IMG/VR virus record: IMGVR_UViG_3300027413_000010
Span: 1-51,504 of that record
Origin: a virus
Direction: 5' to 3' (one strand)
Length of the DNA stretch: 51,504 nt
Part shown: piece by piece, positions 5,953 to 34,806 of the stretch
Position numbering within the stretch: position 1 is the stretch's first letter
How the letters are laid out: each line of letters opens with the position of its first letter
The notes under the pieces: model-generated
The model's database searches: none
What the model was told of the DNA's origin: nothing
The model's input: the letters and a program-made list of their open reading frames with translations, nothing else
Made by a program: the position numbers and the translations under genes

Positions 5953-6919
5953 ATTAATTAAAAAAGGTAAAGGACATAAAGGTGTCTTTTTAAAAGAGGC
6001 AAAGGCCAAATACCCTAGCCTTATAACCAATGCTTCTACATTTAATGAAGCATCTACTATTCTTAAACAAAAAGGAATTATCTCAGAAAACTATGTAGAT
6101 TTAAGACCTATTAATAATCCTTTAGAAAGAAAAAAAGAAGGATATGAGACGGCATTTGCAAATTTTCTAGCTGAAGCAGAAGCAAAAGCTGAAGAAAAAA
6201 AGGTATCTAAAGAAGTAGAAGAAGATGCTGCTAAAAATTATGATTATAAAGATGAAAAAGATCCAAATAACATGATTTTTGGTCAAATTCAAATGGGATA
6301 CTATTTTGAAATGAAGCAAGAAAAAAATGCTGACAAAACAATCGATGAGATTAAAGATATTGTGTTTAAAAACCTAGCTAAAGACCCGATTTACTACACT
6401 AAAAACGGGCAATTTGGTGTTGAAGTAGGATACACAGATGAAGCACCTAGTTTAGGCGAACCAGAAGAACCAAAAGGTGAATACAAATCATCAGGATATG
6501 GTAAACTAAAAGAAAATAAAGAACCAGTTAATGAAATAGCAATAGCAGGTGGTTTAGTAACAGGTGGAGGATTTACATCTAAAGACTACAAAAGTTTTTT
6601 TGGTTTAACTGAAGAAGATACTAATGAAGAAAAAGCAACAAATACAGACATAGAAAGTCAAAAAGAGTTTAATGATGAATTAAAGATAACAAATAATGAA
6701 CTTGAAAAAACTAAAGAGTTAGTAGGTGAGGATGAAATAAAAGAAAACTTTGAAAACGAAATGGCTGATGCATTAGCAACACAAGCAGAAGAAATTCTTA
6801 GAGACGCAGAAGCAAGAGGAGAAGATTTAAATATAGATAAAGTATTAGACATGGTAATGGGTGATATGAGAGGCTTATTAAAACAACACCTTGAAATATT
6901 TGTAAATGATTTAATGTAA
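5927..6919 (+). CDS. Unknown head-module protein C (acidic, helical)
   Basis: 330 residues, overlapping the previous gene by 26 nt and ending one base before the protease ATG. A basic N-terminus (YKLIKKGKGHKGVFLKEAK) is followed by very acidic, Glu/Lys/Ala-rich sequence with long helices, especially residues 225-330 (for example LATQAEEILRDAEARGEDL). A Gly-rich patch (AIAGGLVTGGGFTSKDY) interrupts it near residue 205. Composition and position next to gp21 and the scaffold fit a prohead core component. There is no sequence signature that I can name. Confidence 0.8.
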   Translation: MKTLANQYKLIKKGKGHKGVFLKEAKAKYPSLITNASTFNEASTILKQKGIISENYVDLRPINNPLERKKEGYETAFANFLAEAEAKAEEKKVSKEVEEDAAKNYDYKDEKDPNNMIFGQIQMGYYFEMKQEKNADKTIDEIKDIVFKNLAKDPIYYTKNGQFGVEVGYTDEAPSLGEPEEPKGEYKSSGYGKLKENKEPVNEIAIAGGLVTGGGFTSKDYKSFFGLTEEDTNEEKATNTDIESQKEFNDELKITNNELEKTKELVGEDEIKENFENEMADALATQAEEILRDAEARGEDLNIDKVLDMVMGDMRGLLKQHLEIFVNDLM

Positions 6920-6920
6920 T

Positions 6921-7520
6921 ATGAAACAAGTACTTATAGAAACACAGCTATTCAAACCATCCAAAGGTTTACTATCAGAAGGTAAAATGTCTGAAAGAGG
7001 TAATCCTCTAGTAGAAGGTATACTAGCAACTTGTGAAGTTGAAAACGGTAATGGTAGATTCTACTCTAAAGACCTATGGGAAAGAGAAATAGATAAGTAC
7101 ATGCAACTAGTTGAAGAAAACAGAGCAACAGGAGAATTAGACCACCCTGAATCTCAAGTAATCAACCTAAAAAACGTTTCACACAACATCAAAGACATAA
7201 ACTGGGATGGTAAAAACATCATGGGTACAATAGAACTACTACCTACACCATCAGGAAACATTTTAAAAGCACTAATAGACAGTGGTATCACAGTAGGTGT
7301 ATCATCCAGAGGAATGGGTTCACTAGAACAAAAAGGTGAGCTAATGGAAGTACAAGACGATTTTGAATTACTATGTTGGGATTTTGTTTCAACACCATCC
7401 AATCCAGGTTCATTCATGACACTAAAAGAAGGTAAAGAAAATAACATTAACCAATATGCAAAAGCAAACAGCATAGTAACAGAAATACTATGTGCAAACG
7501 GTAATTGCCCAATATTTTAA
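6921..7520 (+). CDS. 21: Prohead core protease (gp21-like)
   Basis: 199 residues, close to T4 gp21 (212). It is the serine protease that assembles in the prohead core and cleaves scaffold, capsid and internal proteins after (Leu/Ile)-x-Glu. The family motifs are visible: NGNGRFYSKDLW (43-54), the catalytic His in GELDHPES (H75), and the Ser-containing GVSSRGMGSL (S128/S129), followed by FELLCWDFVSTPSNPGSF. It starts one base after gene C and ends three bases before a protein that itself carries a gp21-type cleavage motif near its N-terminus. The placement between portal and capsid genes matches T4 order. Confidence 0.95.
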   Translation: MKQVLIETQLFKPSKGLLSEGKMSERGNPLVEGILATCEVENGNGRFYSKDLWEREIDKYMQLVEENRATGELDHPESQVINLKNVSHNIKDINWDGKNIMGTIELLPTPSGNILKALIDSGITVGVSSRGMGSLEQKGELMEVQDDFELLCWDFVSTPSNPGSFMTLKEGKENNINQYAKANSIVTEILCANGNCPIF

Positions 7521-7523
7521 AAA

Positions 7524-7988
7524 ATGAACGATTTCGATTTAATAAAATATTTAGCTGAAAACAAGCTTATAAAAGAAGAATTAACTTGGTTTATTGATGA
7601 TGAAAACACAGATGTACGTTATGAAAATGATGCATATTTAAAAGAAGTAGGGGATAAAATAAAAGAACTCCACCCTGATATATCCAGTGAAGATTTAAAT
7701 AAAATAATAATCATGACTGGAGAACAATACTCTAGAGAAGAAGACTTTCACGGTGATAGTATTCCTTCAAATAATTTTGTTGAAGCAGCAGTAGAAATAT
7801 ACCAAACGGATGTCTTGGGTAGTGATGGTAAGGATGATGAGGATTTTGATGAATGGGCTCCAGAGAATCTTGATGGTGATTTTCCAAAAGATAGTATGTT
7901 TGCAGGTTGGACACAGGCACAATATGATGCTTACCAAGAAGACCCCTATGTATATTTAAAAGATAAAACTAATCCAAGACTAAAATAA
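7524..7988 (+). CDS. Tagged small acidic protein 1 (putative packaged internal protein)
   Basis: 154 residues, strongly acidic. The N-terminus MNDFDLIKYLAENKLIKEE is a variant of the tag found on the next two genes. LAE followed by a short residue fits the (Leu/Ile)-x-Glu consensus of gp21-family proteases, as in T4 internal proteins whose N-terminal targeting peptide is removed after IAE. The body (residues 19-100) is similar to residues 113-198 of the third tagged protein (shared pattern ENKLIKEELT, then IKELHPDI versus IKSIYPNI, and SNNFVEAAVEIYQ versus SDEFADSIIMSYK). The function of the body is unknown. A capsid-internal location is inferred from tag and context. Confidence 0.8.
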   Translation: MNDFDLIKYLAENKLIKEELTWFIDDENTDVRYENDAYLKEVGDKIKELHPDISSEDLNKIIIMTGEQYSREEDFHGDSIPSNNFVEAAVEIYQTDVLGSDGKDDEDFDEWAPENLDGDFPKDSMFAGWTQAQYDAYQEDPYVYLKDKTNPRLK

Positions 7989-7992
7989 AAAA

Positions 7993-8679
7993 ATGGAAAA
8001 TTTTGATTTAAGAAAATATTTAGCTGAAGGTAGGCTATTAAAAGAAACATTTGTAGAATTTTCTGATGAACAAATTAATAAAGTATTAGATGCTGCTAAA
8101 AGAGGAGAGGCTCCTGAAGATGTAATTGATTCTGATTTTGGGGGTGATGACAAGTATCTCCAATCTGTTAAGGCTTTAATGGATATAAACAACTTCCCAG
8201 AACTAGAAGATGAATTTGAAGATACAATGGATGCTATGATAGTAGAACCTGAAGTATATCTTCAAGATATTATAGATGCATCTGCTGAAGAAATTGTAAG
8301 TGATTCTTATCTCGAGATAATGAAGGGTGTAGGAGAAAGATATAGTGCTCAAGTAGCAGTTATAAAAGCTAAAGCATGGGCTAAAAATAAATTATCTGAT
8401 TTAAAGAACAAAACAGAAAATATTCAAGATAAAGATTTACTAGCATCTCAAGCTATTGATATATTAAATGAATTTATATTTAAGGGTTTTGCTTTAAAAA
8501 GTTTAGATTTAAAACAATATTTAAAGGAATCAAAGGATAGTCTAAAAATAATCCCACCAAATGATGATGTATACAGCATAATACAAGGTATTGCTGATGG
8601 TTTAAACCCATACACAGGTGAAGAATTTGACTACACAGTAGATGAAATGCAGTCTGAATTAGAAAGACTTATAGCTTAA
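7993..8679 (+). CDS. Tagged small acidic protein 2 (putative packaged internal protein)
   Basis: 228 residues, acidic and helical. It starts with MENFDLRKYLAEGRLLKE, nearly identical to the start of the next gene at protein and DNA level, yet the sequence after the tag is unrelated to it. LAE followed by Gly is a good gp21-type cleavage site. A degenerate second copy, LDLKQYLKESKDSLK, occurs near residues 173-187. There is no catalytic motif or membrane segment. The start is ATG after an AAAAAA run, four bases after the previous stop. The simplest reading is a capsid-internal protein delivered with the DNA, but the cargo function is unknown. Confidence 0.8.
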   Translation: MENFDLRKYLAEGRLLKETFVEFSDEQINKVLDAAKRGEAPEDVIDSDFGGDDKYLQSVKALMDINNFPELEDEFEDTMDAMIVEPEVYLQDIIDASAEEIVSDSYLEIMKGVGERYSAQVAVIKAKAWAKNKLSDLKNKTENIQDKDLLASQAIDILNEFIFKGFALKSLDLKQYLKESKDSLKIIPPNDDVYSIIQGIADGLNPYTGEEFDYTVDEMQSELERLIA

Positions 8680-8749
8680 AATTAAAAATAAAAAAATGGA
8701 TAATTTCGATTTAAGAAAATATTTAGCTGAAGGTAGGCTATTAAAAGAA
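7993..8749 (+). repeat. Duplicated 54-nt tag sequence (7993-8046 and 8696-8749)
   Basis: The first 18 codons of the second and third tagged genes differ at only two of 54 bases (GAA/GAT and TTT/TTC), while the coding sequence downstream diverges completely. A shorter related block (GAAAACAAGCTT then TAAAAGAA) occurs at 7557, 9017 and 9296. Conservation that is confined to the tag points to recent copying or selection on the tag itself. Confidence 0.85.
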
Positions 8750-9637
8750 GAATTCGTTAAAGGGACACCTCAATATTATGTTAAATACACAACTCAAGAT
8801 GGTGAAGAAGTTAAATCCGAGCTTATGTCTAAAAGAGAAGCAATTTATAAAGAAAGAGATTTAGTTGATAGTGGTGTTAAAAAATCCTCAGTTCATAAAA
8901 TTCAAAAGAATATGGACTTAAATGGAAAAGAATATGAAATTGAATATGAATTAGATAAAGACATTGAGTATAGAACAGATGAAGAAGGTAAACCCATTAT
9001 GGAAAATATTCAAGATGAAAACAAGCTTTTAAAAGAAGAACTAACTTACCAATTTAGTGAATACGATTTTGATATAACTAAAGAACCTGGATACCAAGAA
9101 GAGATTATAAAAAAAATTAAATCAATTTATCCTAATATAGAAAATGACATAATGATGAGAATGATTAGAGACTCTGAAGATTATTATTATAGTAAAGCTC
9201 GTTCTGAAAATAAATTAGGAAGGGATTATGAACTAGTAGGTTCGGACGAGTTTGCGGATAGTATAATAATGAGTTATAAAGATCAATATTTAGAAGAAAA
9301 CAAGCTTATAAAAGAATACCTAGATCTTGAAATAGATGAAGATGAAGGTCAAGTAACAATAACTTCTTCTTCGGGTGAATATAGTGGATTTATAGAAGAC
9401 GATAACACAGTAGATTTTTCAGTATATGGGTATCAAAAAGAAAGAGAAGATTGGGGAGATGATTTTGATGAATATAACTGGAAAAACATTTTAGGGAAAA
9501 AACATGCATTTGTAAAAATTTTTAAGCAACTACCAGAAACTAAAGTTGAAGCAGCAGGTGATTATGTTATGATTACAGTAGACTTAGAAGACCTTAAAGC
9601 AATATCTGAAAAAAACAGCGACCTTTACTCCTCCTAA
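8696..9637 (+). CDS. Tagged protein 3 with three internal tag-like segments
   Basis: 313 residues. The tag MDNFDLRKYLAEGRLLKEE is at the N-terminus. Two further tag-like segments divide the protein: QDENKLLKEE (107-116) and LEENKLIKE (199-207). This gives three modules of about 90-100 residues. Module 1 (20-106) has a beta-like YYVKYTTQDGEEVKSEL pattern resembling small phage proteins; module 2 (116-198) matches the body of the first tagged protein; module 3 (208-313) is acidic with DEDEGQVTITSSSGEYSGF. Cleavage at the internal segments could release separate peptides, but this is a guess. The final stop precedes a 105-nt palindrome-rich spacer. Confidence 0.8.
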   Translation: MDNFDLRKYLAEGRLLKEEFVKGTPQYYVKYTTQDGEEVKSELMSKREAIYKERDLVDSGVKKSSVHKIQKNMDLNGKEYEIEYELDKDIEYRTDEEGKPIMENIQDENKLLKEELTYQFSEYDFDITKEPGYQEEIIKKIKSIYPNIENDIMMRMIRDSEDYYYSKARSENKLGRDYELVGSDEFADSIIMSYKDQYLEENKLIKEYLDLEIDEDEGQVTITSSSGEYSGFIEDDNTVDFSVYGYQKEREDWGDDFDEYNWKNILGKKHAFVKIFKQLPETKVEAAGDYVMITVDLEDLKAISEKNSDLYSS

Positions 9638-9742: not shown

Positions 9743-10813
9743 ATGGCAAAAAGAGACATTCTCAAAGAAGCTATCGCTGACGCCAAAACCGTAAAAGAAA
9801 CCGCTATCGCAAATGCTAAGGCAGCACTTGAAGAATCTTTTACTCCTCGACTAAAAGAAATGCTAGCTACAAAGTTAGAAGAAATGGAATTAGACGAAGA
9901 GGCAGAAGTAGATGAAATGCTAGACCCAAACCATGACATGAGAAAACCTGCAGAAGATGAATATGCTCCTGCAAAAGACACAGTCATGAGAAAAAGAAGG
10001 ATGGAAGAAGATTTAGATGAAGAAATTGATCTAGATGAAATCTTAGCAGAAATCGAATTAGACGAAGAAGATAAGGATGAAATCAAAGAAGATGAAGCCA
10101 CTGACAAAGAGGAAGAAGGCTACATTGACGGAGAAGAAGATGCTGACGAAGACAAGGACGAAGAAGAACTCGACTTGGATGATATGTCAGATGACGACCT
10201 TAAAAATTTCATCGAAGACGTAATTGCAGATATGGTTGCTTCAGGCGATTTGGAAGCAGGCGAAAATTTCGAAGAAGAAGACGAAACAGAAGAAATAGTA
10301 GACGATACAGAAGTAGACGTTGAAATTTCAGAAGACGAAGAAGTCAAAGAAATTGAATTAGACGAAGCTAAAGAAAAAGAAGTTAAAGAAGAAGATTCCA
10401 AAAAAGAAAAAAAGGAAAAAGCTGAAATGGCTGAAGTTTACAAGGCAAAAGAAGAAATGGAAGAAGAGCTTAATGAAGCATATTCTACTATTAAAACTTT
10501 AAAGTCTGATTTAAACGAAGTTAATTTGCTTAATGCAAAATTGTTATACACTAACAAGATTTTCAAAGCAAAAACTTTGACAGAAAGTCAAAAAGTTAAA
10601 GTATTAGGTGCTTTTGATAAAGCAGGTACTGTAAAAGAAACTAAATTGGTATTCGAAACTTTAAGCGAAGGCTTAAAAGCTAAGAAAAAATCTCCAATAA
10701 CAGAATCTTTAGGTACAGCTTCAAGAGTATCAAGATCAGTTAACGCTAAAAAACCAATTATTGAAACTGACCCAATGGTGGCTAGATTCAAGAAATTGGC
10801 AGGTATAAAATAA
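9743..10813 (+). CDS. 22: Prohead core scaffold (gp22-like)
   Basis: 356 residues, extremely acidic and helical (Glu/Asp runs over residues 48-225), as expected of the major scaffold that fills the prohead and is digested by gp21. The C-terminal third is the recognisable part: a coiled coil (EEELNEAYSTIKTLKSDLNE) then LLNAKLLYTNKIFKAKTL and TESQKVKVLGAFDKA, seen in gp22 of marine T4-like phages, ending MVARFKKLAGIK. The N-terminus MAKRDILKEAIADAK contains LKE before Ala, compatible with gp21 cleavage. It lies directly upstream of the capsid gene, as in T4. The start is supported by the AGGA site. Confidence 0.9.
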   Translation: MAKRDILKEAIADAKTVKETAIANAKAALEESFTPRLKEMLATKLEEMELDEEAEVDEMLDPNHDMRKPAEDEYAPAKDTVMRKRRMEEDLDEEIDLDEILAEIELDEEDKDEIKEDEATDKEEEGYIDGEEDADEDKDEEELDLDDMSDDDLKNFIEDVIADMVASGDLEAGENFEEEDETEEIVDDTEVDVEISEDEEVKEIELDEAKEKEVKEEDSKKEKKEKAEMAEVYKAKEEMEEELNEAYSTIKTLKSDLNEVNLLNAKLLYTNKIFKAKTLTESQKVKVLGAFDKAGTVKETKLVFETLSEGLKAKKKSPITESLGTASRVSRSVNAKKPIIETDPMVARFKKLAGIK

Positions 10814-10842: not shown

Positions 10843-12522
10843 ATGTCACAATTAAATTCACTTTTAGAAAGCTCAGCAGGTAACTGGAAGAACATGCAGA
10901 GTGATGCTGCTAGATTAGCATCAAAGTGGGAAAAAACAGGACTATTAGAAGGATTCGATAGCGAGCAAAACAAGAACAACATGAGTATGATTCTTGAAAA
11001 CCAAGCTAAACAATTAGTTGTTGAACAATCAAATAATACTACTGGTACTGGTGGAACTTTCCAAGTTGGTGCTGGTGCTCAATGGGCAGGCGTTGCTTTA
11101 CCATTAGTAAGAAAAGTATTTGGACAAATTTCTGCTAAAGAATTTGTTTCTGTTCAACCAATGAACCTTCCTTCAGGTCTAGTATTTTTCCTAGATTTCC
11201 AATACGGACAAGATAAAGAATTAAATTTCGGCCCAGGCGGAAATGCATATTCTAGTCCAGCTTCTATGTACGGTAACACTAACCCAGGTGCTGGTGCAGA
11301 CCCATCTGATGGTTTATATGGTGCTGGTAGATTTGGATATTCAATTAACCAATTCTCAGCTTCAGCTGCTGCTGTAGTAGGTGTTGCTTCATGGGAGCAA
11401 CTACACTATGCTGCTGAATTATCAGCTTCAGTTGCTGCTGGAGGTTATTCTTCAGTATCTATTGATGCTTCAGATTTATCTGATCCAGACAAAAAAGGAG
11501 TTAGAGCATTCGTAATTTCTTCAGGTTCAAGTTTTAGTGCTGCTTCAGGTGCTAAATTATTACCTAAGTATACTGAATATGATGCAGGTGCAGACAAAAT
11601 TTATTTTGTATTTGAAGGTGCCCCAGGTGCTGCAGATATCCCAGGAAATGGTGATGATGCTTATGTATTATACAACAAACAACCAGTCGATAACGCAAGA
11701 GGCGATTTCGAAGATGCTGCAGGTGCAGGTAGACCAAACGCTGAATCTACTTCTGCTGATATGTTAGCAATTCCTTCAATCGATGTAAAAATGAAATCAG
11801 AAGCAATTGTTGCTAAAACTAGAAAGTTAAAAGCACAATGGACTCCTGAATTTGCTCAAGATTTAAATGCTTACCAAGCATTAGATGCAGAAGCTGAATT
11901 AACTTCAGTAATGAGTGAGTACATTTCATTAGAAATTGACCTAGAAATTCTTGATATGTTAGTCCAAGATGCATCAGCTGCTGATGAGTACTGGAGTGCT
12001 AAAAACAATCAAGCTTTAAATGCTGCTAAATCAGGATTTGAAGATTTAGGTTTTTTCAACGCACAAGGACAATGGTTCCAAACATTAGGAACTAAATTAC
12101 AGAAAGTATCTAACAAGATTCACCAGAAAACTCTTAGAGGTGGTGCTAACTTTATGGTAATTTCTCCATCAGTTGCTACAGTAATTGAATCAATCCCAGG
12201 ATTTGCTTCAAACGCTGACGGTGATGCTTCTAAACAAAAGTTTGCTTTTGGTATCCAGAAAATGGGACAAATGAACAGCAGATATGATGTTTATAAGAAT
12301 CCTTATATGACTGAAGGTACAATCCTTATGGGATATAGAGGTAACCAGTTCCTAGAAACAGGTGCTGTATTTGCTCCTTACATTCCATTGATTATGACTC
12401 CATTAGTATATGATCCAGACACTTTCACACCAAGAAAAGGTCTATTAACGAGATATGCTAAGAAGATGATCAGACCAGAATTTTACGGAAGAGTATTTGT
12501 TTCTAACTTAGAGTTAGTATAA
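10843..12522 (+). CDS. 23: Major capsid protein (gp23-like)
   Basis: 559 residues (T4 gp23 is 521). It forms the hexamers of the head. The N-terminal region (KWEKTGLLEGFDSE, MSMILENQAKQLV) matches the removable delta region of gp23, with candidate gp21 cleavage sites after LLE (36), ILE (52) or VVE (61). The mature part begins with the typical GTGGTFQVGAGAQWAGVALPLVRKVF and VSVQPMNLPSGLVFFLDFQYG. The C-terminus has the conserved KMGQMNSRYDVYKNPYMTEGTILMGYRG and FTPRKGLLTRYAKKMIRPEFYGRVFV. Alanine- and glycine-rich insertions around residues 140-300 probably form surface domains. An intrinsic terminator follows. Confidence 0.97.
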   Translation: MSQLNSLLESSAGNWKNMQSDAARLASKWEKTGLLEGFDSEQNKNNMSMILENQAKQLVVEQSNNTTGTGGTFQVGAGAQWAGVALPLVRKVFGQISAKEFVSVQPMNLPSGLVFFLDFQYGQDKELNFGPGGNAYSSPASMYGNTNPGAGADPSDGLYGAGRFGYSINQFSASAAAVVGVASWEQLHYAAELSASVAAGGYSSVSIDASDLSDPDKKGVRAFVISSGSSFSAASGAKLLPKYTEYDAGADKIYFVFEGAPGAADIPGNGDDAYVLYNKQPVDNARGDFEDAAGAGRPNAESTSADMLAIPSIDVKMKSEAIVAKTRKLKAQWTPEFAQDLNAYQALDAEAELTSVMSEYISLEIDLEILDMLVQDASAADEYWSAKNNQALNAAKSGFEDLGFFNAQGQWFQTLGTKLQKVSNKIHQKTLRGGANFMVISPSVATVIESIPGFASNADGDASKQKFAFGIQKMGQMNSRYDVYKNPYMTEGTILMGYRGNQFLETGAVFAPYIPLIMTPLVYDPDTFTPRKGLLTRYAKKMIRPEFYGRVFVSNLELV

Positions 12523-12615: not shown

Positions 12616-13056
12616 ATGGCAGCGGGAAAATACGATTTTACAATAGAACAAGGAGCTACAGTTGATTTTGAAGTTAGATATACAGACGTTTCAGGTTCAG
12701 CAATAGATTTAACAGGATATCAAGCAAGAATGCAACTAAGACCTGCCCCTGGAGCTAAACAAACTTACATGACTTTATCTTCAAGTTTACAACCTTGTGG
12801 GTCTGGCCTTAATATGAATGGCTCTAAAAATGACTCAGGTTATCCTAAAAACCCAACATCAGGTTCAATAGGAGTATACATATCGGCACTTTCATCTTCT
12901 TTATTAAATTTCCCAGTAGCTGTTTATGATTTAGAAATAGCATCAGGAAGTGGTCATTGTTATACTGTGACTAGACTTTTAGAAGGAGTAGTAAAATTAT
13001 CTAAAAATATAACATTAGGAAGCTTTGGCTTACCAATACCAACAGGCAGTTTATAA
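12616..13056 (+). CDS. Small beta-rich structural protein
   Basis: 146 residues. It starts MAAGKYDFTIEQGATVDFEVRY and continues with alternating strands, including IDLTGYQARMQLRPAPGAK and FPVAVYDLEIASGSGHCYTV. This layout is common in tail or baseplate-associated proteins of marine T4-like phages and resembles an immunoglobulin-like or upper-baseplate beta domain; I cannot assign an exact family. It lies between the capsid terminator and the large repetitive fibre, so it may anchor or decorate that fibre or the head. The start is well placed after a late-type motif, with no Shine-Dalgarno. Confidence 0.75.
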   Translation: MAAGKYDFTIEQGATVDFEVRYTDVSGSAIDLTGYQARMQLRPAPGAKQTYMTLSSSLQPCGSGLNMNGSKNDSGYPKNPTSGSIGVYISALSSSLLNFPVAVYDLEIASGSGHCYTVTRLLEGVVKLSKNITLGSFGLPIPTGSL

Positions 13057-13069
13057 TAATAATAAAAAT

Positions 13070-16000
13070 ATGAGTACTATATCATCACAAAACCCAACCA
13101 CAGTAGTAACAATAGCAACTCCAGGACCTAAAGGACCTCCAGGACCAGCTGCACCCGCAGGAGATTTAAGTGGAAGTCTTCAACTAACAGGTTCTTTATC
13201 TGTATCGGGTTCAGGAACAGGTTCATTTGTAGATTTTTCAAATACACAATATGTAACAGGTTCATTTACTGGTAGTTTTAAAGGAGATGGTAGTGCTATA
13301 ACAGGAATTACAGCTAGTATACAAAATTCAGCTTCATTTGCAGTTGTAACAGGACCAAACCATTTTACAGGTTCACAATTTGTATCTGGCTCAATCATCC
13401 CAGAAGCAATAGATTCGGGAAATGGGTTATATGATTTAGGTTCGATTACTAAACCTTGGAGAGATTTATACATAACAACTTCATCATTAAATTTTGTAAA
13501 AGATGCAGTAGTAATAGCTTCTATGAATGGAGAACCAGGAGGAGTTAGAATAGGAAATATTTTTATAGGAACAGGTTCTATATCTGTTGTTAGTGGAAGT
13601 GGAGATAATATGACTACAGTTAATAATGTAGTAGAAGTAACTACAAATGACAGTGGTAGTATAGAAAAAGTAATAGAGCAATATGTAACTGCATCAGGAG
13701 CAGCTTCAATAACAGGCTCTCTAACAGTATCAGGTTCAAACATAACAGTTTTAGGAGGCACATTTATAGGTGATGGTAGTGGTTTAACAGGTATAACTTC
13801 TAGTTTACCTAGTGGAGTAATAAGTAGTTCAACTCAATTAGATAATTTAGGATATGTTGAAAGTTCCATTACATCATCAACAATAATAACATCATCAGCT
13901 AACCTAAATGTAATAACATTTACTAAAGGTGATAGTTCAACATTTTCAATAACAGTAGACACAGGTTCAGGAGAACCTTTACCAAATGGAGTAATATCTT
14001 CATCAGCTCAAGTTATAGAATCTTTACCTTCAGGTGTAATAAGTAGTTCAACACAATTACCTTCAGGAATAATAAGTAGTTCAACACAATTACCTTCAGG
14101 AATAATAAGCGGCTCAGAACAATTACCTTCAGGATTAATAAGTAGCTCAGACCAGCTTATATCAGAACTTCCTTCAGGTGTGGTAAGTAGTTCAGCTCAA
14201 ACTATATCTAACCTACCATCAGGAGTAATAAGCAGTTCAGAACAATTACCTTCAGGATTAATAAGCAGCTCAGAACAATTACCTTCAGGATTAATAAGCA
14301 GCTCAGAACAATTACCTTCAGGAATAATAAGCGGCTCAGAGCAGTTACCTTCAGGATTAATAAGCAGTTCAGAACAACTTCCTTTAGGTATAGTAAGTAG
14401 TTCAGCTCAAATAGAAAATTTAGGATTTATTTCTTCTAGTGGAAATACATCATTTTCAGGTTCAACTTCATTTACTGGGTCTACAACAGTGTCAGGTTCA
14501 TTGACAGTAATAGATAATCAAGGGTTTAGAGTAGAGGGTAACACAGTTTTAACAGGTAGTAATCTTATCCAAGGTATTACTTTAATAACTGGAGATTCCT
14601 TCTCAGTACAATCTACCTCATCATTTGAAGGTGATGTTAGTGTTACTGGTAGTTTAACAGTTACAGAAGGGATTACAGGTTCACTTCAAGGAACAGCTTC
14701 TATATCATTAGACTCACTATTATTAGATGGAAAAGATTCAGCTACATTTGCAACTACAGGTTCAAATGATTTTAAATCAAGCCAATATATAAGTGGTTCA
14801 GTAGTTATTGCTCCATCAACAGACCCAGGAACTAGTAATATAAATGCTACTTACTTATTTACTTCAGCTTCTAACTTTAGTTCAGACCAATGTGATTTTT
14901 ATTATAGAAATAAAGGCACATTATGGGATCAGGAATGGCTTGAATATGGTGTAGGATCAGGACTTATATATGGTGGTATTGTAACTTTTAATGGTTCTGA
15001 CATATATGTTAGTCCTGGAGGAGGTTTAGTTGTAAGTTACAACGCAGAAACAGGTTCTGCAAATGCAGTTGTTCCAACTCAAGTTAAATGGGGTGCTATT
15101 ACTGCAAGTGCTACATTTTTAACATCGTCTCAATATTCTCATATTTATTTAGATGAGAATGGAAATTTACAACAACAAGTAGAAGATTTTACTTCACAAC
15201 AATATTTAGAAAAAATTCCTTTAGGCACTTTAGGTCATTTAACTAATACTTACATTGATGCTTTTGGAGAAGAAAAACAAACAACATATGCAGGCCCAGC
15301 CCAAGCTAACCAATTTATTAGATCATTTGGTCCTTTAAAACGACAAGGATATGATTTAACAGCTGATGGTTCTACTTTAGGGTTTAGCACTGCACAGGGT
15401 ATTACATTTAAGTTAGGAGGATTTTATTCCAAAGACCCTAATAACCCAAGTATATATGACACTCCTTCTTTAACATCAACTACTAAAACAGTTAGAGTAT
15501 ATCGATCTGGTAGTGATTTTATAGGAGATATTAATAGTGGTAATTTTTATAGTGCAGTTGACCCTACCAAATATGATGATGGAACGGGCACATTAACTAC
15601 TATTAGTGGTTCAACAACTACAATTCAAAGAGTATATGTAGGACCAACTAGTGAAAGGTTTTATATATATTATGGTCAAGATACTTATGATAGTATACCA
15701 ACAGCTGTAAGCCAATTATCCACAGAACAATTTACAGAATCCCTTACTACATCAAAATCTTTAACATTTATTGGTTATATAGTAGTTAGAGCAGATGCAA
15801 CTGATTTAAGTGATGTTAACCAAGCTAATTTAATTAATGGTGGTTTATTTAGAAACACAGTAGGTGGTTCAGGAGGAGGAACATCAACAATAAGTAATTT
15901 AGGAGAAATTACAGATGTTACTATTGTTGCTCCTGCTACAAACCAATTCCTAAAATATGATGCTGGTGTTTGGGAAAATTCAAATATACAGTATAATGAA

Positions 16001-16489
16001 TTAGTTAATACACCTTCAGGCATAATATCAGGTTCATCCCAGTTAACAGCTTTAGGTGTAGTTACATCTAGTGGTAATAATACAGAATTTGACACTGATG
16101 TAACAATTAATGGCAGTGATCTTTCAGTAATAGGAAGTTCTGAATTTGATGGTCCTGTTTATGGTAAAGTTATTACTACATCAATTACCTATTCTGGCTT
16201 ATGGGCTGGTATTTTTGCAGCAAATGAAGGTAATTTCTTCCAAACTACACTAAAACCCTCTTCTGTTAATAACCTTGGCATCGGTAGTGGATTCCCAGGT
16301 CAAACGATTAATGTAAAAATCACCCAATCTTCAACCAATCCAGGTACTATTAGTTGGAATAGTAGTATTAAATTCCCAGATGGGTTTGATAGTGCAGCTT
16401 CAACCGGAGCTAATGATATAGATGTATTTACATTTATAACTTGGGATGGTAATAATTGGTATGCAACTGGATTAAAAAACTTCTCATAA
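13070..16489 (+). CDS. Large repetitive tail fibre protein
   Basis: 1139 residues from the ATG at 13070; an earlier in-frame TTG at 13025 lies inside the previous gene and is unlikely. The N-terminus has a short collagen-like GPKGPPGPAAPAGD. Repeated TGSLTVSGS and ITGSL strings follow, typical of triple-beta-helical fibre shafts. Residues 304-447 consist of twelve 11-residue LPSG(V/I/L)ISSS-x-Q units. One copy of the NVITFTKGDSSTF module shared with later fibre genes precedes them. The region after about residue 590 is a globular domain with DFYYRNKGTLWDQEWLEYG and IYVSPGGGLVVSYN, and the end is a beta-rich tip with FPDGFDSAASTG. It probably binds the host surface. Confidence 0.85.
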   Translation: MSTISSQNPTTVVTIATPGPKGPPGPAAPAGDLSGSLQLTGSLSVSGSGTGSFVDFSNTQYVTGSFTGSFKGDGSAITGITASIQNSASFAVVTGPNHFTGSQFVSGSIIPEAIDSGNGLYDLGSITKPWRDLYITTSSLNFVKDAVVIASMNGEPGGVRIGNIFIGTGSISVVSGSGDNMTTVNNVVEVTTNDSGSIEKVIEQYVTASGAASITGSLTVSGSNITVLGGTFIGDGSGLTGITSSLPSGVISSSTQLDNLGYVESSITSSTIITSSANLNVITFTKGDSSTFSITVDTGSGEPLPNGVISSSAQVIESLPSGVISSSTQLPSGIISSSTQLPSGIISGSEQLPSGLISSSDQLISELPSGVVSSSAQTISNLPSGVISSSEQLPSGLISSSEQLPSGLISSSEQLPSGIISGSEQLPSGLISSSEQLPLGIVSSSAQIENLGFISSSGNTSFSGSTSFTGSTTVSGSLTVIDNQGFRVEGNTVLTGSNLIQGITLITGDSFSVQSTSSFEGDVSVTGSLTVTEGITGSLQGTASISLDSLLLDGKDSATFATTGSNDFKSSQYISGSVVIAPSTDPGTSNINATYLFTSASNFSSDQCDFYYRNKGTLWDQEWLEYGVGSGLIYGGIVTFNGSDIYVSPGGGLVVSYNAETGSANAVVPTQVKWGAITASATFLTSSQYSHIYLDENGNLQQQVEDFTSQQYLEKIPLGTLGHLTNTYIDAFGEEKQTTYAGPAQANQFIRSFGPLKRQGYDLTADGSTLGFSTAQGITFKLGGFYSKDPNNPSIYDTPSLTSTTKTVRVYRSGSDFIGDINSGNFYSAVDPTKYDDGTGTLTTISGSTTTIQRVYVGPTSERFYIYYGQDTYDSIPTAVSQLSTEQFTESLTTSKSLTFIGYIVVRADATDLSDVNQANLINGGLFRNTVGGSGGGTSTISNLGEITDVTIVAPATNQFLKYDAGVWENSNIQYNELVNTPSGIISGSSQLTALGVVTSSGNNTEFDTDVTINGSDLSVIGSSEFDGPVYGKVITTSITYSGLWAGIFAANEGNFFQTTLKPSSVNNLGIGSGFPGQTINVKITQSSTNPGTISWNSSIKFPDGFDSAASTGANDIDVFTFITWDGNNWYATGLKNFS
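13979..14410 (+). repeat. Twelve-unit 33-bp-type repeat in the fibre gene
   Basis: Units encode LPSG-(V/I/L)-(I/V)-S-(S/G)-S-x-Q. Most are directly adjacent at 33 bp; three have short 3-5 residue spacers (VIES, LISE, TISN types). Several neighbouring units are almost identical in DNA, which suggests copy-number change by slippage or unequal recombination. Isolated related units occur at about 13806 and 16012. Confidence 0.9.
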
Positions 16490-19079: not shown

Positions 19080-20037
19080 AAATTATAGAAAACCAGTACC
19101 AAAGTCTCAAAGAGAAATATCTGAAGGTTTACAAAAACCCTATGGGAAAATTACTGAGGGTAATCCCAATAAAGCTAATGTAAAAAACCAAACAATTCCC
19201 ACTAATGAAGCTAATTTAGATTTTAATAGGTCTGATAATATGTCTTTTAAAGGAGACAAAGAAAAAATCCTTTCTATTGGTATAAAAGATTTAGATGAAG
19301 CTATAATGTATTATTTTAATAATGTTATTAAACCTACAGTAATACAAAATAATGAAAGAACTCCAGTTCCAATAATATATGGTTCACCTGAAAGATGGAA
19401 ATCAATCCAAAAAGATGCATATTATAGAGATAAAAAAGGTGCTATAATGATGCCAATAATAATGTTTAAAAGAGATACCTTAGAAAAAAATAGAAATTTA
19501 GGAAGAAAATTAGATGCTAATGAACCTAACCTTTATACCTTTTTTCAAAAATCTTATAATGATAAAAATTTTTATAGCAATTTTAATATTTTAAATAATA
19601 GAATACCAACAAAACAACAAATAGCAAATGTTATTCCTGATTGGGTTAACTTAACTTATAGTTGTATTGCACAAACCTATTATGTAGAACAATTAAATAA
19701 AATAATAGAAGCCATAAACTACGCTTCTGATTCTTATTGGGGTAATCCTGATAGGTTCAAATTTCGAGCAAGAATAGACAGTTTTACTACCATTACTGAA
19801 TTACAACAAAGTCAAGAAAGACTAGTAAGAGGTACATTTCAATTAAATTTATACGGGTATTTAGTACCTGAAGTTATACAAAAAGACCTTAATTCAATTA
19901 AAAAAGTTAATTCAAAATCTAAAATTATTTTCCAAATAGAAACTGATGGAAGGCCCGAAAGATATGAACAAAGAGTCACAAAACTTCCAGATGGAAGAGA
20001 TAGTGTAGGTAGAAGTGGAGAAGAATTAAATTCCTAG
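19072..20037 (+). CDS. 15: Proximal tail sheath stabiliser / tail terminator, gp15-like
   Basis: 321 residues (T4 gp15 is 272). After a disordered, basic N-terminus of about 65 residues the core shows the gp15 pattern: TPVPIIYGSPERWKSIQKD (VPI-x-Y), MMPIIMFKRDTL (LPRI-like strand), WVNLTYSCIAQTYYVEQLNK (YELSI-x-T-x-Y-like), FKFRARIDSF, and ERLVRGTFQLNLYGYLVPE (RRI-x-x-x-LTF-x-x-x-GY-x-P-like). gp15 caps the tube and sheath before head joining. It is the last gene of the neck cluster and a new late-type motif follows before the fibre cassette. Confidence 0.7.
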   Translation: MAKNYRKPVPKSQREISEGLQKPYGKITEGNPNKANVKNQTIPTNEANLDFNRSDNMSFKGDKEKILSIGIKDLDEAIMYYFNNVIKPTVIQNNERTPVPIIYGSPERWKSIQKDAYYRDKKGAIMMPIIMFKRDTLEKNRNLGRKLDANEPNLYTFFQKSYNDKNFYSNFNILNNRIPTKQQIANVIPDWVNLTYSCIAQTYYVEQLNKIIEAINYASDSYWGNPDRFKFRARIDSFTTITELQQSQERLVRGTFQLNLYGYLVPEVIQKDLNSIKKVNSKSKIIFQIETDGRPERYEQRVTKLPDGRDSVGRSGEELNS

Positions 20038-20068
20038 TAAAAAAATTTAATAGGTAAGTTTTATTTTA

Positions 20069-20080
20069 ATATTTATAAAT
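20069..20080 (+). promoter_or_regulatory. Late-promoter-like motif upstream of the fibre cassette
   Basis: AATATTTATAAA, continuing to T, contains the palindromic TATTTATAAATA-type core with one mismatch. It is 18 nt before the ATG at 20098. Confidence 0.5.
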
Positions 20081-20097
20081 AGTAAACTGATAAAATT

Positions 20098-21546
20098 ATG
20101 CCTACATTTGCAAGATTTCTTGACCAAGTCCCAGTAAACCCATTTGAGCCTCAATCATCTGCTGTTACTATTAACACAGGTTCATTTATGGTTACCGGTT
20201 CTGTGGCTGGGAACGTTTTAACATTCACTAAAGGAGATTCTTCTACTTTTGATTTAGCAATAGCTGCTTCGGCTAGTTCAGCTGATGCTGTAGTAACTGC
20301 ATCGGTTTCCGCTAGCACAATGACTTTCACTAAAGGTGATGCTAGCACATTTGATGTTGCTTTACCTACTAGCTCAGGAGGTGGAACTGATATAACATAT
20401 AATTCAGAGGTTTCACAAGTAATCCAAAATATAGTAGTGCAAGATTTTGATAATGATGTTGCTGTTAATTTTAATGCTGGAACCCTAACATTTATATTTG
20501 GAACACCTACAGCACCAACACCATCATTAACCAACACAGGAGATATTTTTGCTACAGACAGATTTAATAAAGTATTTGATACCTATAATGTTGTAGGAGA
20601 TTTTAATTTAGGAGCTTATAATTTAATAAGTGCTTCATTGTTAGAAACAACAGCTGGAAGTGAATCTACCTTATTAGGACCAGTAGGAACTGGAGATAAT
20701 TTATCAGTTACACCTAACACAACAGGTTCAAGATCTTATAGATTAATGATTACTTCAAGTAACCCATCAGATGGGGCAATTGTTTCTGCTTCAGTAGATC
20801 TTAATTTAACTGTTACTAAAATACCGGCAGATATTCCATTAGTATCAACAACAGCAACAGCTCAATTAGGAGTTGCTTCCAATCAAATAGAAGTAGGAGC
20901 TACAGGAACTATATCTTATACTTCATCTAGAGGTTCAAATGAAAGAAATTGGGCATTTGTTGATATGGATATAAATTATCCTCATTTCCCAACAGGCCCA
21001 CAACCTACAAATGTTAGTGGAAGTATCCTTTTAAATGGTTATGGAGAAACTCAACAATTTTCTATAAATGCAACAGCAGCTTATTCATCTTCAGGTGTAG
21101 CAGGTGCAGATAATTCTCCAGCATTATACCCAGGTAATTCTGCATTAGCATCTAGAACTTCAGCCAATACAGTTTATACTAGAATTAGAAGTGTTAGAGC
21201 TGGAGCTTCATCTCAACCTACTTTTACAGCTAATGAATTATATAATTTAGCTACTTGGGATACAACATTAGGAGGAACTATTGGAACTATAGCAAAAGGA
21301 ACAACAAATCCAAATAACCATAACATAGATATTACATGGACAGGAGATAAATATCAATATATAGTATATGATGCTGCTAGATCTAATTTATCAAGTATTA
21401 AAGAAAGAGCTACTGGTTATGATATAATGGGTCCTACTTTTGGAGGAGCATTATTTGCTACTGTTGGAGGATACAAAATTTATAGATCAACAAACCCTCA
21501 AGCAGGATATACAGGAACAACTGCAGAATATGTATTAAACACTTAA
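20098..21546 (+). CDS. Tail fibre protein, cassette gene 1
   Basis: 482 residues, Ser/Thr/Ala/Gly-rich and beta-predicted. It carries two copies of the shared FTKGD-S/A-STFD module (about residues 41-50 and 75-85). A domain beginning PTPSLTNTGDIFATDRFNKV with ISASLLETTAGSESTLLGPVG follows, and the C-terminal tip contains WDTTLGGTIGTIAKGTTNP and FGGALFATVGGYKIYRS. The last two regions are paralogous to the next gene, with about half the residues matching by eye. This is probably a receptor-binding fibre subunit. The chemistry of the receptor is unknown. Confidence 0.8.
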   Translation: MPTFARFLDQVPVNPFEPQSSAVTINTGSFMVTGSVAGNVLTFTKGDSSTFDLAIAASASSADAVVTASVSASTMTFTKGDASTFDVALPTSSGGGTDITYNSEVSQVIQNIVVQDFDNDVAVNFNAGTLTFIFGTPTAPTPSLTNTGDIFATDRFNKVFDTYNVVGDFNLGAYNLISASLLETTAGSESTLLGPVGTGDNLSVTPNTTGSRSYRLMITSSNPSDGAIVSASVDLNLTVTKIPADIPLVSTTATAQLGVASNQIEVGATGTISYTSSRGSNERNWAFVDMDINYPHFPTGPQPTNVSGSILLNGYGETQQFSINATAAYSSSGVAGADNSPALYPGNSALASRTSANTVYTRIRSVRAGASSQPTFTANELYNLATWDTTLGGTIGTIAKGTTNPNNHNIDITWTGDKYQYIVYDAARSNLSSIKERATGYDIMGPTFGGALFATVGGYKIYRSTNPQAGYTGTTAEYVLNT

Positions 21547-28569: not shown

Positions 28570-30180
28570 ATGGCAACATGGAAAAAAGTAGTTGTATCAG
28601 GTTCGGGATTAGAACAATTATCTAATTCAACCACCAACTACATAACGCAAGCGGGGATTGATTTTCCCGTAGACTCAGTAAATGGGTTAACCGGAGCAGT
28701 AGTACTTCCGATTTTATCAGGCTCAAGCTTCACAGCAGGTGCAGCAGATAACAGTTTATTAATTACAGCTGGAGATGGTGTAACAACATCAGTAACTTTA
28801 AATAGTACAGCAGCCCCAGTTGATTCAGTAAATGGATTAACCGGAGCAGTAGTATTACCAATACTTTCAGCTTCAAGCTTCACAGCAGGTGCAGCAGATA
28901 ACAGTTTATTAATTACAGCTGGAGATGGTGTAACAACATCAGTAACTTTAAATAGCACAGCAGCCCCAGTTGATTCAGTAAATGGATTAACCGGAGCAGT
29001 AGTACTTCCGATTTTATCAGGTTCAAGTTTCACAGCAGGTCCAGTAAATAACAATTTATTAATTACAGCTGGAGATGGTACAACAACATCTGTTCAACTT
29101 GGTGATGCTGACCCTTTAGTAGATTCTGTTAATGGATTAACAGGAGCAGTAGTATTACCAATACTTTCTGGTTCAAGCTTCACAGCAGCAGCAGCAGATA
29201 ATACGTTTATAATCACAGCTGGAGATGGTGTAACAACATTAGTAACTTTAAATAGTACAGCAGCCCCAGTAGATTCAGTAAATGGATTAACCGGAGCAGT
29301 AGTACTTCCGATTTTATCAGGCTCAAGCTTCACAGCAGGTGCAGCAGATAACACGTTTATAATCACAGCTGGAGATGGTGTAACAACATTAGTAACTTTA
29401 AATAGTACAGCAGCCCCAGTAGATTCAGTAAATGGATTAACAGGAGCGGTAGTATTACCAATACTTTCTGGCTCAAGCTTCACAGCAGCAGCAGCAGATA
29501 ACAGTTTATTAATTACAGCTGGAGATGGTGTAACAACATTAGTAACTTTAAATAGTACAGCAGCCCCAGTTGATTCTGTTAATGGATTAACCGGAGCAGT
29601 AGTATTACCAATACTTTCAGCTTCAAGCTTCACAGCTCACTCTTCAGGTGGAGGAATTCCACAAGGTGAAATAAGAATCACAGATGGAGGTGGTACTGTA
29701 GCAACTATTGATTTAGGATTACTAACTAATGATAATGTTACATTCAATAATTTAAATGTTGATGGTAATTTAGTAGTAGAAGGTACAGCTTCATTCAGAC
29801 ATTCACAAAACCTAGACGTAGTAGACCAATACATCACATTGAACTCAGGTTCAGGTGCTGGTGGTGGTGGTGCAGATGGTGGTGGTATCATCGTTGCTCA
29901 AGATGCAGCAAATGATAAAGGTGAAGCCTTTGCATGGATAGATGGTAGTACTGAAACTGTCGATAATAAGAGATGGGGTATTGCAGGAAGTATACCAAGT
30001 TCTACAGTTGGCAACATTACTCCAGCTGCATTTATGGCATCTATATTTAAAACAACAACTAATGTAGATACCGCAGCAACAATTCTTACAGCAGCAGGTA
30101 GTGGTGGTGCTGGAACTGGGTATAATAAACCAGGTAACATTTATGTTGATCCATCTGATGGAATATGGATGTATTCTTAA
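28570..30180 (+). CDS. Tail fibre protein with 50-residue tandem repeats
   Basis: 536 residues. After 33 N-terminal residues there are six full 50-residue repeats beginning VDSVNGLTGAVVLPIL and a seventh partial copy. The SVNGLTGAVVL core is a common fibre-shaft motif. The C-terminal part (from about residue 356) contains VTFNNLNVDGNLVVEGTASF, NLDVVDQYITLNSGSG, a Gly-rich loop and DNKRWGIAGSIP, ending in YVDPSDGIWMYS. This is a typical fibre end domain in marine T4-like phages. Repeat identity at DNA level implies recent amplification. A strong terminator follows. Confidence 0.85.
   Translation: MATWKKVVVSGSGLEQLSNSTTNYITQAGIDFPVDSVNGLTGAVVLPILSGSSFTAGAADNSLLITAGDGVTTSVTLNSTAAPVDSVNGLTGAVVLPILSASSFTAGAADNSLLITAGDGVTTSVTLNSTAAPVDSVNGLTGAVVLPILSGSSFTAGPVNNNLLITAGDGTTTSVQLGDADPLVDSVNGLTGAVVLPILSGSSFTAAAADNTFIITAGDGVTTLVTLNSTAAPVDSVNGLTGAVVLPILSGSSFTAGAADNTFIITAGDGVTTLVTLNSTAAPVDSVNGLTGAVVLPILSGSSFTAAAADNSLLITAGDGVTTLVTLNSTAAPVDSVNGLTGAVVLPILSASSFTAHSSGGGIPQGEIRITDGGGTVATIDLGLLTNDNVTFNNLNVDGNLVVEGTASFRHSQNLDVVDQYITLNSGSGAGGGGADGGGIIVAQDAANDKGEAFAWIDGSTETVDNKRWGIAGSIPSSTVGNITPAAFMASIFKTTTNVDTAATILTAAGSGGAGTGYNKPGNIYVDPSDGIWMYS
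28669..29637 (+). repeat. 150-bp tandem repeat, six full copies plus a partial one
   Basis: Copies start at 28669, 28819, 28969, 29119, 29269 and 29419, each exactly 150 bp, with a partial copy from 29569. Copies 2, 3, 5 and 6 are nearly identical over long stretches. The fourth begins after a more diverged junction (GDADPL instead of NSTAAP). Variation is concentrated at three positions in the unit (GS/AS after PIL, TAGAA/TAAAA, and NSLL/NTFI), distributed in a patchwork that suggests gene conversion between copies. Confidence 0.95.
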
Positions 30181-33621: not shown

Positions 33622-33653
33622 AAGGAGATTTGGCTTAGCTAAATCTCCTTTTT
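33622..33653 (+). terminator. Intrinsic terminator after the tube gene
   Basis: A ten-pair stem AAGGAGATTT/AAATCTCCTT with a nine-base loop and a TTTTT tail (33649-33653). It lies directly after the tube stop. Confidence 0.9.
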
Positions 33654-33658
33654 ATATT

Positions 33659-33673
33659 GGTATTTATAATAAA
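33659..33673 (+). promoter_or_regulatory. Late-promoter-like motif upstream of the chaperone gene
   Basis: GGTATTTATAATAAA follows the tube terminator and lies about 30 nt before the ATG at 33701, so it could restart transcription. Confidence 0.5.
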
Positions 33674-33700
33674 GTAAAAGTTATTAACAAATAAAAGATT

Positions 33701-34441
33701 ATGGCCGAATTTAATTTACCTACTGAAGAAGTAGAATTACCCTCAAAAGGATTATTATACCCTAAAGAAAACCCTCTATCATCTGGTAAAATAGAGATGA
33801 AATATATGACCGCTAAGGAAGAAGATATTTTAACCAATCAAAACTATATCACAAAAGGAATAGTAATAGATAAACTATTACAATCTTTAATTATTAATAA
33901 AGATATTAATTATAATGACTTACTAATAGGAGATAAAAATGCTATTATGATAGCTGCACGTATTTTATCCTATGGTGAAAATTATGAATTTACGTGGGAC
34001 AATCAACCACAAAAGGTTAATCTATCAGAACTAAAAAACGATGAAATAGATGTAGATTTATTTAAACCAGGCGAAAATAATTTTGCATTTACATTACCAA
34101 ACACAGAAAATAAAATCACTTTTAAATTATTAACTCATGGTGATGATAAAAAAATAGAGGCTGAAATAAAGGGTTTAAAAAAAATAGATAAACAAGGAAC
34201 CCATGATGTAACTACTAGATTATCTCATGTAATTACTTCCATCAATGGTAGTGAAGAAAAAAAAGACATTAGAGAATTCGTTAAAGGATACCTTTTAGCA
34301 AAAGATGCTAGAGAACTTAGAAACCATTATGCTAAAATATCACCTGATGTTGATATGAAAGTTTATTTAGACACAGCAAATGGAGGAGAGGAGGTAGTAG
34401 ACCTTCCTATAGGTCTTAACTTTTTTTGGCCTGACGCCTGA
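33701..34441 (+). CDS. gp26-like baseplate protein / probable tail-assembly chaperone (zero-frame product)
   Basis: 246 residues. The N-terminal LPTEEVELPSKGLLYPKENP, then KIEMKYMTAKEEDILTNQNY, KGIVIDKLLQSLIIN and IGDKNAIMIAARILSYGENY match the family annotated in marine T4-like phages as gp26, a baseplate hub component; T4 gp26 is 208 residues. Its genomic place, between tube and tape-measure genes, is the place of the tail-assembly chaperone in most long-tailed phages. The C-terminus ends ...GLNFFWPDA at a TGA right after a run of seven T (34421-34427). A second frame carrying convincing coding sequence continues from there (see next entry). Confidence 0.8.
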   Translation: MAEFNLPTEEVELPSKGLLYPKENPLSSGKIEMKYMTAKEEDILTNQNYITKGIVIDKLLQSLIINKDINYNDLLIGDKNAIMIAARILSYGENYEFTWDNQPQKVNLSELKNDEIDVDLFKPGENNFAFTLPNTENKITFKLLTHGDDKKIEAEIKGLKKIDKQGTHDVTTRLSHVITSINGSEEKKDIREFVKGYLLAKDARELRNHYAKISPDVDMKVYLDTANGGEEVVDLPIGLNFFWPDA

Positions 34442-34769
34442 TTATAGAGTATTAATATTTGAATCTATACATGATATAGTTTTCCATGGTAAAGGAGGAT
34501 TTGACTGGGAAACTGTATATAACATGCCTATATGGTTAAGAAATTTTACATTACGTAGAATCTCAAGCCATTATGAAAAAGAACACTCGGCAGCAACCGG
34601 TAAATCTAAAAATGAAAAGTCTTGGGTAGACCCTTCTGTAAAGAATCAGGCTAAAAATTCCACCCCAGAATCTAATCAAATCCAAATCCCTAGTTTTTTA
34701 CAAAATAAAAAATCTCAAGAAACAACTAAAACAACACCTAACAGTACTAAGAGAACTTCATATAAATAA
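34428..34769 (+). CDS. Probable frameshift extension of the chaperone gene
   Basis: This frame is open from 34413 to TAA at 34767-34769 and does not start with a usable start codon until ATG 34524. From 34428 it encodes GLTPDYRVLIFESIHDIVFH, then GKGGFDWETVYNMPIWLRNF and TLRRISSHYEKE, protein-like throughout, with a Ser/Lys/Asn-rich disordered end. The sequence before ATG 34524 is as well formed as that after it, so initiation at 34524 would waste a conserved-looking segment. A +1 or -2 shift on the T7 run joins it to the upstream gene as a product of about 355 residues. Alternatives are an indel in the T run or independent initiation at 34524 giving 81 residues. Confidence 0.65.
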   Translation, partial: GLTPDYRVLIFESIHDIVFHGKGGFDWETVYNMPIWLRNFTLRRISSHYEKEHSAATGKSKNEKSWVDPSVKNQAKNSTPESNQIQIPSFLQNKKSQETTKTTPNSTKRTSYK

Positions 34770-34779
34770 CTCTTTTTTT

Positions 34780-34795
34780 AAATATTTATAATAAA
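34780..34795 (+). promoter_or_regulatory. Late-promoter-like motif upstream of the tape-measure gene
   Basis: AAATATTTATAATAAA follows a TTTTTTT run and lies about 12 nt before the ATG at 34807. Confidence 0.5.
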
Positions 34796-34806
34796 CCCAC
34801 ATTTAT

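Follow-up and report, generated by a model that had tools for sequence, protein, structure and literature searches.

A portable N-terminal tag beside the prohead protease of uncultured T4-like phages: a candidate capsid-targeting sequence

Three tagged genes in the head gene cluster

In a 51.5-kb fragment of an uncultured T4-like phage (the whole of which is referred to as the window) three consecutive genes located beside the prohead protease gene begin with nearly the same peptide, which raises the question of why proteins with different bodies should share an N-terminus at this position. The first-pass annotation took the peptide for a tag with a gp21-type cleavage site, recruiting unrelated cargo into the head for injection. 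The head genes are arranged in the order TerL, portal, three conserved genes, S77 prohead protease, the three tagged genes, scaffold candidate and Gp23, and the following features are referred to below:

6921–7520, + strand: prohead protease, gp21/Peptidase_S77 family (Pfam PF03420, 2.1e-26; PHROG 207, head maturation protease, 8.4e-57)
7524–7988, + strand: gene 1 (ORF), candidate tagged cargo of 154 aa, body homologous to the middle of gene 3
7524–7577, + strand: tag of gene 1, MNDFDLIKYLAENKLIKE
7993–8679, + strand: gene 2, candidate tagged cargo of 228 aa, mosaic, its later domains found singly behind the tag in relatives
7993–8046, + strand: tag of gene 2, MENFDLRKYLAEGRLLKE
8503–8532, + strand: relic-like internal tag of gene 2, LDLKQYLKES
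8696–9637, + strand: gene 3 (ORF), candidate tagged cargo of 313 aa with three domains
8696–8749, + strand: tag of gene 3, MDNFDLRKYLAEGRLLKE, identical to the gene 2 tag in 52 of 54 bases
9017–9037, + strand: internal joint 1 of gene 3, ENKLLKE (residues 108–114), where the gene-1-like domain begins
9296–9316, + strand: internal joint 2 of gene 3, ENKLIKE (residues 201–207), where domain C begins
9743–10813, + strand: prohead core/scaffold candidate in the position of gp22, acidic and conserved in 87 phmmer hits
10843–12522, + strand: major capsid protein gp23 (Pfam Gp23, 2.5e-72)

Comparison of the ORFs confirmed a common tag over the first 18 codons of the three genes, with the consensus M-x-[ND]-FDL-x-KYLAE-[GN]-[KR]-L-[LI]-KE. 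As had been proposed, genes 2 and 3 are alike only in this part; beyond the tag they agree in 21 of the next 54 bases and the proteins are unrelated past residue 27. The tag of gene 1 agrees with those of genes 2 and 3 in 43 and 44 of 54 bases, respectively. The description as unrelated cargo holds for genes 2 and 3 but not for gene 1, whose body is homologous to the middle domain of gene 3 (residues 107–194). Since gene 3 contains this gene-1-like domain as well as two extra internal copies of the tag end, the genes of the window are not simply unrelated cargo. Domain C of gene 3 occurs singly behind the tag in two other loci (L069 and L078), and in relatives of gene 2 (L124, L080 and L089) joints of the types LAEGKLLKE and LAENNLVKE divide domains that in L029 and L067 stand alone behind the tag; the joints kept in these relatives are eroded in gene 2 of the window. 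Searches of Pfam and PHROG with gene 1 gave no convincing match.

In the AlphaFold model of gene 3 (mean pLDDT 74) confidence drops mainly at residues 15–22, 102–113 and 201–208, where the tag ends and where the two joints lie; shorter dips at 89–92 and 247–251 match no joint. For gene 2 (overall pLDDT 61) residues 1–18 are below 50 and the body is helical with low confidence; both models contain a short helix at residues 6–11. Fold searches with the gene 3 model revealed nothing convincing (best E 0.04 in PDB and 0.02 among viral structures), and VIA-align with its domain A gave middling Z scores, up to 6.6 for PsaD chains, which may reflect only a common arrangement.

Elsewhere in the window, a long tail-fibre-like protein (13025–16489) has a Gly-Pro-rich start and many LPSG(L/I)ISSSEQ repeats, and a structural-looking protein (28570–30180) contains about seven near-identical VDSVNGLTGAVVLPILSxSSFTA repeats.

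Spread of the tag and its relation to the protease

When IMG/VR was scanned with an exact degenerate pattern for FDL[KR]KYLAE, at least 119 stretches were found compared with none for the reversed peptide, which rules out chance or low complexity as the origin of the tag. In the loci fetched, 155 of the matches begin at protein index 3. BLAST comparison of the bodies divided the 151 unique tagged proteins into 70 clusters, the tag being almost always N-terminal, and in an alignment of 67 of them only the tag columns were retained. The search of viral metagenomes that the first-pass annotation had suggested as a check thus recovered the tag on unrelated proteins of phages with an S77 protease. 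Bacterial and archaeal genomes, 257 Gb in all, contained two matches, a chance one in a prenyl synthase and another on a phage contig that had been assigned to a MAG; a general bacterial motif is thereby ruled out. The latter contig (JAAEPJ010000459.1, from the MAG 'bacterium isolate Cli_8') belongs to the genome of a T4-like phage with the tag, which was misbinned or co-assembled. A signal peptide was set aside, as the tag, inspected by eye, has no hydrophobic stretch. Across the 151 proteins the third codon positions of the tag vary most (entropy 0.64 compared with 0.37 and 0.25) and F, K, Y, L and E are fixed, showing that selection acts on the peptide. Taken together, the sequences make it almost certain that this is a portable N-terminal tag with S77-type sites on unrelated proteins, and the system belongs to a group of T4-like viruses infecting aquatic bacteria. 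The motif was not found in the literature searched.

A divergent variant, FDLKKFL.ENK, is likewise N-terminal and with the combined pattern up to six matches per genome are obtained. A tblastn search of isolates with the bare 20-residue tag gave no match, the query probably being too short. The isolate closest to the window by its protease (~48% identical) is Flavobacterium phage immuto (NC_055915). It carries the variant tags MENTFDLKKFLVENKLTNNSRLLE, MADNFNLRSFLTENKLTKNAQLLKE and MENFDLKKFLVENKLTTNSKILKE in genes at 19807–20355, 33632–34633 and 34633–34932, and one of the variant-tagged proteins is annotated as a cob(I)alamin adenosyltransferase. The proteins concerned in this phage, whose host is Flavobacterium sp. 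LMO8, are gp076 (with MENFDLKKFLVENKLTTNSKILKE, followed by NSN), gp077 and gp092.

To assess the association with the protease, 80 loci were fetched by protease similarity alone and scanned for the strict tag. This revealed 18 tagged genes, all of them first or second after the protease (position +1 in 13 of 73 loci and +2 in 5 of 68) and none elsewhere in the flanks; in most of these relatives the slot is empty, with no gene there. Where the variant and a protease are in the same locus, 14 of 28 variant copies directly follow the protease gene. An S77 protease is present in the window and in 13 of the 16 large tag-carrying contigs, including all six of at least 155 kb, and the three lacking one in the sequence at hand may all be fragments; among 36 tag contigs, mostly short fragments, it was found in 14. 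The location between protease and scaffold, which had been pointed out for the window, applies there but is only one of several among the relatives, as loci selected by the motif have many tagged genes away from the protease, also upstream of TerL and elsewhere. A second slot, common to many motif-selected loci (L048, L011, L085 and others), lies upstream of TerL, with tagged genes between a gene of ~82 aa and a FAD-type oxidoreductase-like gene of ~430 aa.

Cleavage sites, exchanged leaders and internal joints

According to the first-pass annotation the protease would cut between LAE and the following Gly. The [LI]-x-E sites are indeed present and conserved, but behind LAE a second [LI]-x-E (L-K-E or L-Y-E) appears in two adjacent registers, L-x-E or L-[LIV]-x-E. 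A second [LIV]xE occupies one of these registers in 137 of the 151 tagged proteins (about 9 expected from shuffling), 71 using one and 66 the other, one residue apart. In the FDLKKFL.ENK variant an [LIV]xE is found at +17 to +19 in 69 of 97 cases against about 6 expected from shuffling, which displaces the second site by about six residues relative to the first half. Such slipping against a conserved first half is as expected of a protease site and not of a helix face. In T4 the gp21 protease cleaves behind L/I-x-E, and the propeptides measure 10–19 residues (PMC9026906), a range that includes the 17–18 residues from the start of the tag through the second LxE in most of the 151 proteins. This second site (residue 17 or 18, LYE or LKE) is the better candidate, because it is here that the shared leader ends and the bodies begin. 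LAE-Gly was set aside as the sole cut site, the second LxE being conserved and found at the joints between leader and body. Judged by these patterns, the S77 protease most likely removes the leader after the second Glu, and LAE-Gly may be an additional cut.

In gp23 the predicted maturation cut falls after Glu61, between QLVVE and QSNN (codon 11023–11025). The Glu at the expected position is invariant in 52 of 52 aligned homologues, nearly all having QLVxE, which fits a protease with [LI]-x-E-like specificity in this clade. The N-terminus of the scaffold candidate, MAKRDILKEAIAD, contains an LKE site, and a Pfam search with this protein gave no match.

Orthologues of tagged bodies with other N-termini were collected and compared with an expectation from internal windows of the same proteins. 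Behind other leaders an [LIV]xE is located at the joint in 29 of 32 orthologues (4.6 expected), and where the same cargo lies within longer proteins the boundary carries one in 14 of 16 (3.0 expected). One body, a kinase, is found behind MNDFDFKKYLAEGRLLKE, MIKLLNLLLE, MIKLTNLLKE or MIGLVQLLRE, and another, with the sequence DRCLRIADRKF, behind MNRLQKIIQEVLQE or MATSKLKETIQSVLSE. A search for swaps by fixed leader classes was too strict and gave three families only. Among untagged genes of the same contigs, 560 of 1267 have an N-terminal [LI]xE compared with 313±16 after shuffling; [LI]xK and [LI]xD showed no N-terminal enrichment in these genes, nor did [LI]xE in lambda and Flavobacterium phage 11b, and in the whole genome of immuto the enrichment is weak (z 1.7). 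Homologues of FEN and UvsX do not keep an N-terminal LxE, so the pattern is not general to every gene.

Within tagged proteins the motif E[NGS][KR]L-(x)-x-E recurs internally 22 times compared with 0.2 after shuffling, at 55 times the density in untagged proteins. The FDL[KR]KY half is absent from 19 of the 22 and the first LxE is kept in 15. The simplest reading of these sequences is that tagged genes fuse and that the internal joint retains only the part needed by the protease, in which case the protease could release several cargo domains from a single polypeptide. A two-part module of address and cut site, with fusion building cargo polyproteins that the protease would split in the head so that a single tag loads several injected effectors, may be proposed on these grounds, but tentatively.

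Proposed function and alternatives

The tag is probably a capsid-targeting sequence with a built-in removal site, working like the leader of the T4 internal proteins. In the proposed mechanism the first half, M-x-x-FDL-[KR]-KY, would dock the protein onto the prohead core during assembly, and the second half, LAE-[GN]-[KR]-L-(x)-x-E, would offer two [LI]-x-E sites to the neighbouring S77 protease. Trimming, most likely after the second Glu, would free the cargo in the head. We infer docking, cleavage and presence in the virion with good confidence as parts of this capsid targeting; that the freed proteins are then delivered with the phage DNA into the host, by analogy with T4, is a reasonable expectation held with less assurance. 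Against this reading stand the many tagged genes away from the protease, the three large contigs lacking S77 (which may be fragments), the weak [LI]xE enrichment in immuto and the acidity of the bodies. As the leader is self-contained, it could be placed in front of unrelated small proteins by different phages, and fusion of adjacent tagged genes could yield multi-domain proteins with the cleavage half alone at their internal joints.

The T-even internal proteins have a common leader on unrelated bodies and Ip1-3 of T4 are anti-restriction proteins that block type IV restriction enzymes (PMC12373910). In T4 IPIII residues 4 and 7 matter for targeting and residues 8 and 10 for processing, and it has already been suggested that such sequences let T4-like phages load various proteins (PMC9026906). 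The present tag shares with them a short N-terminal propeptide on unrelated proteins ending in (L/I)-x-E, aromatic residues before the site, a large choice of alternative cargo genes among related phages and a gp21/S77 protease in the same genome. IPII and IPIII start with MKTYQEFIAE, and IPI starts with MKTFKEF and reaches ITE at residue 19. The layout of MKTYQEFIAE is similar (an aromatic residue at position 4 and aromatic-[LI]-A-E-small), the peptides being too short for a statistical test. The leader sequence itself is different (MDNFDLRKYLAEGRLLKE in gene 3), as are the two conserved LxE sites, the cargo slot between protease and scaffold, the tags at internal joints of multi-domain cargo and a far larger cargo repertoire.

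The propeptides of ejection proteins in phiKZ-like phages and SPN3US also have identical N-termini on diverged proteins and two overlapping cleavage motifs (SPN3US gp53/gp54; PMC5694885), but belong to another protease lineage with the motif A/S-x-E, are mostly longer than 100 residues and precede paralogous bodies. Polyvalent proteins and P1 DarA/DdrB are multi-domain, packaged with phage DNA, in some cases proteolysed and include zeta-toxin-like kinases (Iyer et al. 2017; PMC5512222); they differ in being very long and lacking this tag, and their cutting is attributed to their own metallopeptidase domains or other proteases. The proteins described here have a median length of 145 aa and lie in a T4-type head region with Gp23 and S77, as opposed to very large multi-effector polypeptides in a MuF/portal context.

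The tagged proteins might also dock and be cut but serve as core fillers or shape-determinants, mostly degraded and expelled, like the T4 core parts gp67 and gp68. The slot adjoining the scaffold, the strongly acidic bodies and the several putative internal cut sites would agree with such a role, but about 70 unrelated bodies, among them a zeta-toxin/AAA kinase and a DUF5872 protein, vary between close relatives and the slot is empty in most related genomes, unlike what an essential core part would show, so that we consider it unlikely. Still less probable is an uncleaved anchor, a short helix staying on the protein and attaching it to a part of the virion (portal, core or capsid), with LxE merely reflecting helix periodicity and Glu-rich composition; the pattern is amphipathic and the models place a helix at residues 6–11. 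The one-residue slip of LxE in the tag and that of about six in the variant argue against this, as do the different leaders, which have only the terminal [LIV]xE in common, and the internal joints, which lose the helix half and keep the cleavage half. The 52 identical bases of genes 2 and 3 and the clear gene mosaicism would suit a recombination or translation-start element at the DNA level that aids cargo shuffling, the peptide being a by-product, but the variable third positions over fixed residues and the replacement of the tag by unrelated leaders with LxE kept make this highly improbable; recombination at the tag may still occur as a side effect.

The cargo proposed under capsid targeting consists nearly entirely of orphans. 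Of 67 members almost none could be named with Pfam and PHROGs, one zeta-toxin/AAA-type kinase (1.4e-16) and one DUF5872 protein being the bodies identified; matches to Tad5 and SieB were rejected as being weak (E about 0.008) and at chance level. For the tagged bodies (L004–L122) the median pI is 4.48, against 5.53 for untagged genes matched in size and drawn from the same contigs (P 3e-21), while the T4 internal proteins are basic. Because of this difference some of them could be core components and not injected cargo, and the acidity would be compatible with DNA mimicry in counter-defence or with a function in the core. By analogy with T4 Ip1-3, the function of the cargo is perhaps counter-defence.

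To our knowledge, the proteins injected with phage DNA have been described in only a handful of viruses, chiefly T4 and giant phages. The new elements here are the sequence of the tag, its doubled LxE site, the gene position next to the protease, the size of the system and the presence of internal joints. With a recognisable tag, finding candidate injected proteins becomes a sequence search, and the tag marks 151 distinct candidates from uncultured phages of aquatic bacteria, almost all of these proteins lacking known relatives. It would represent a natural, possibly multiplexed, protein-loading signal in a phage lineage far from T4, and immuto is an isolate in which the system can be studied.

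Many further candidates are marked by the rule of an [LIV]xE-ended leader. Other N-terminal classes ending in [LI]xE, MKKSELK..IKEEI..L.E, MKELxRFRQFLAEGxIKE, MI.L..LLKE and LRMQMLAGIITEGQYK..LNE (L024, L031, L043, L118 and L203, the last being immuto), look like alternative capsid leaders. Short LxE-ended leaders were also observed on NMN adenylyltransferase-like and 5'-nucleotidase-like genes (L031, 1922–4025; L024, 4228–6363; L203, 25857–26456), and if these proteins are packaged the heads may carry NAD-related enzymes. In Pelagibacter phage HTVC008M a kinase homologue (5989–6651) starts with MIPFILKEGLYDP, an LKE-ended leader, which suggests that the leader logic may extend to other T4-like phages.
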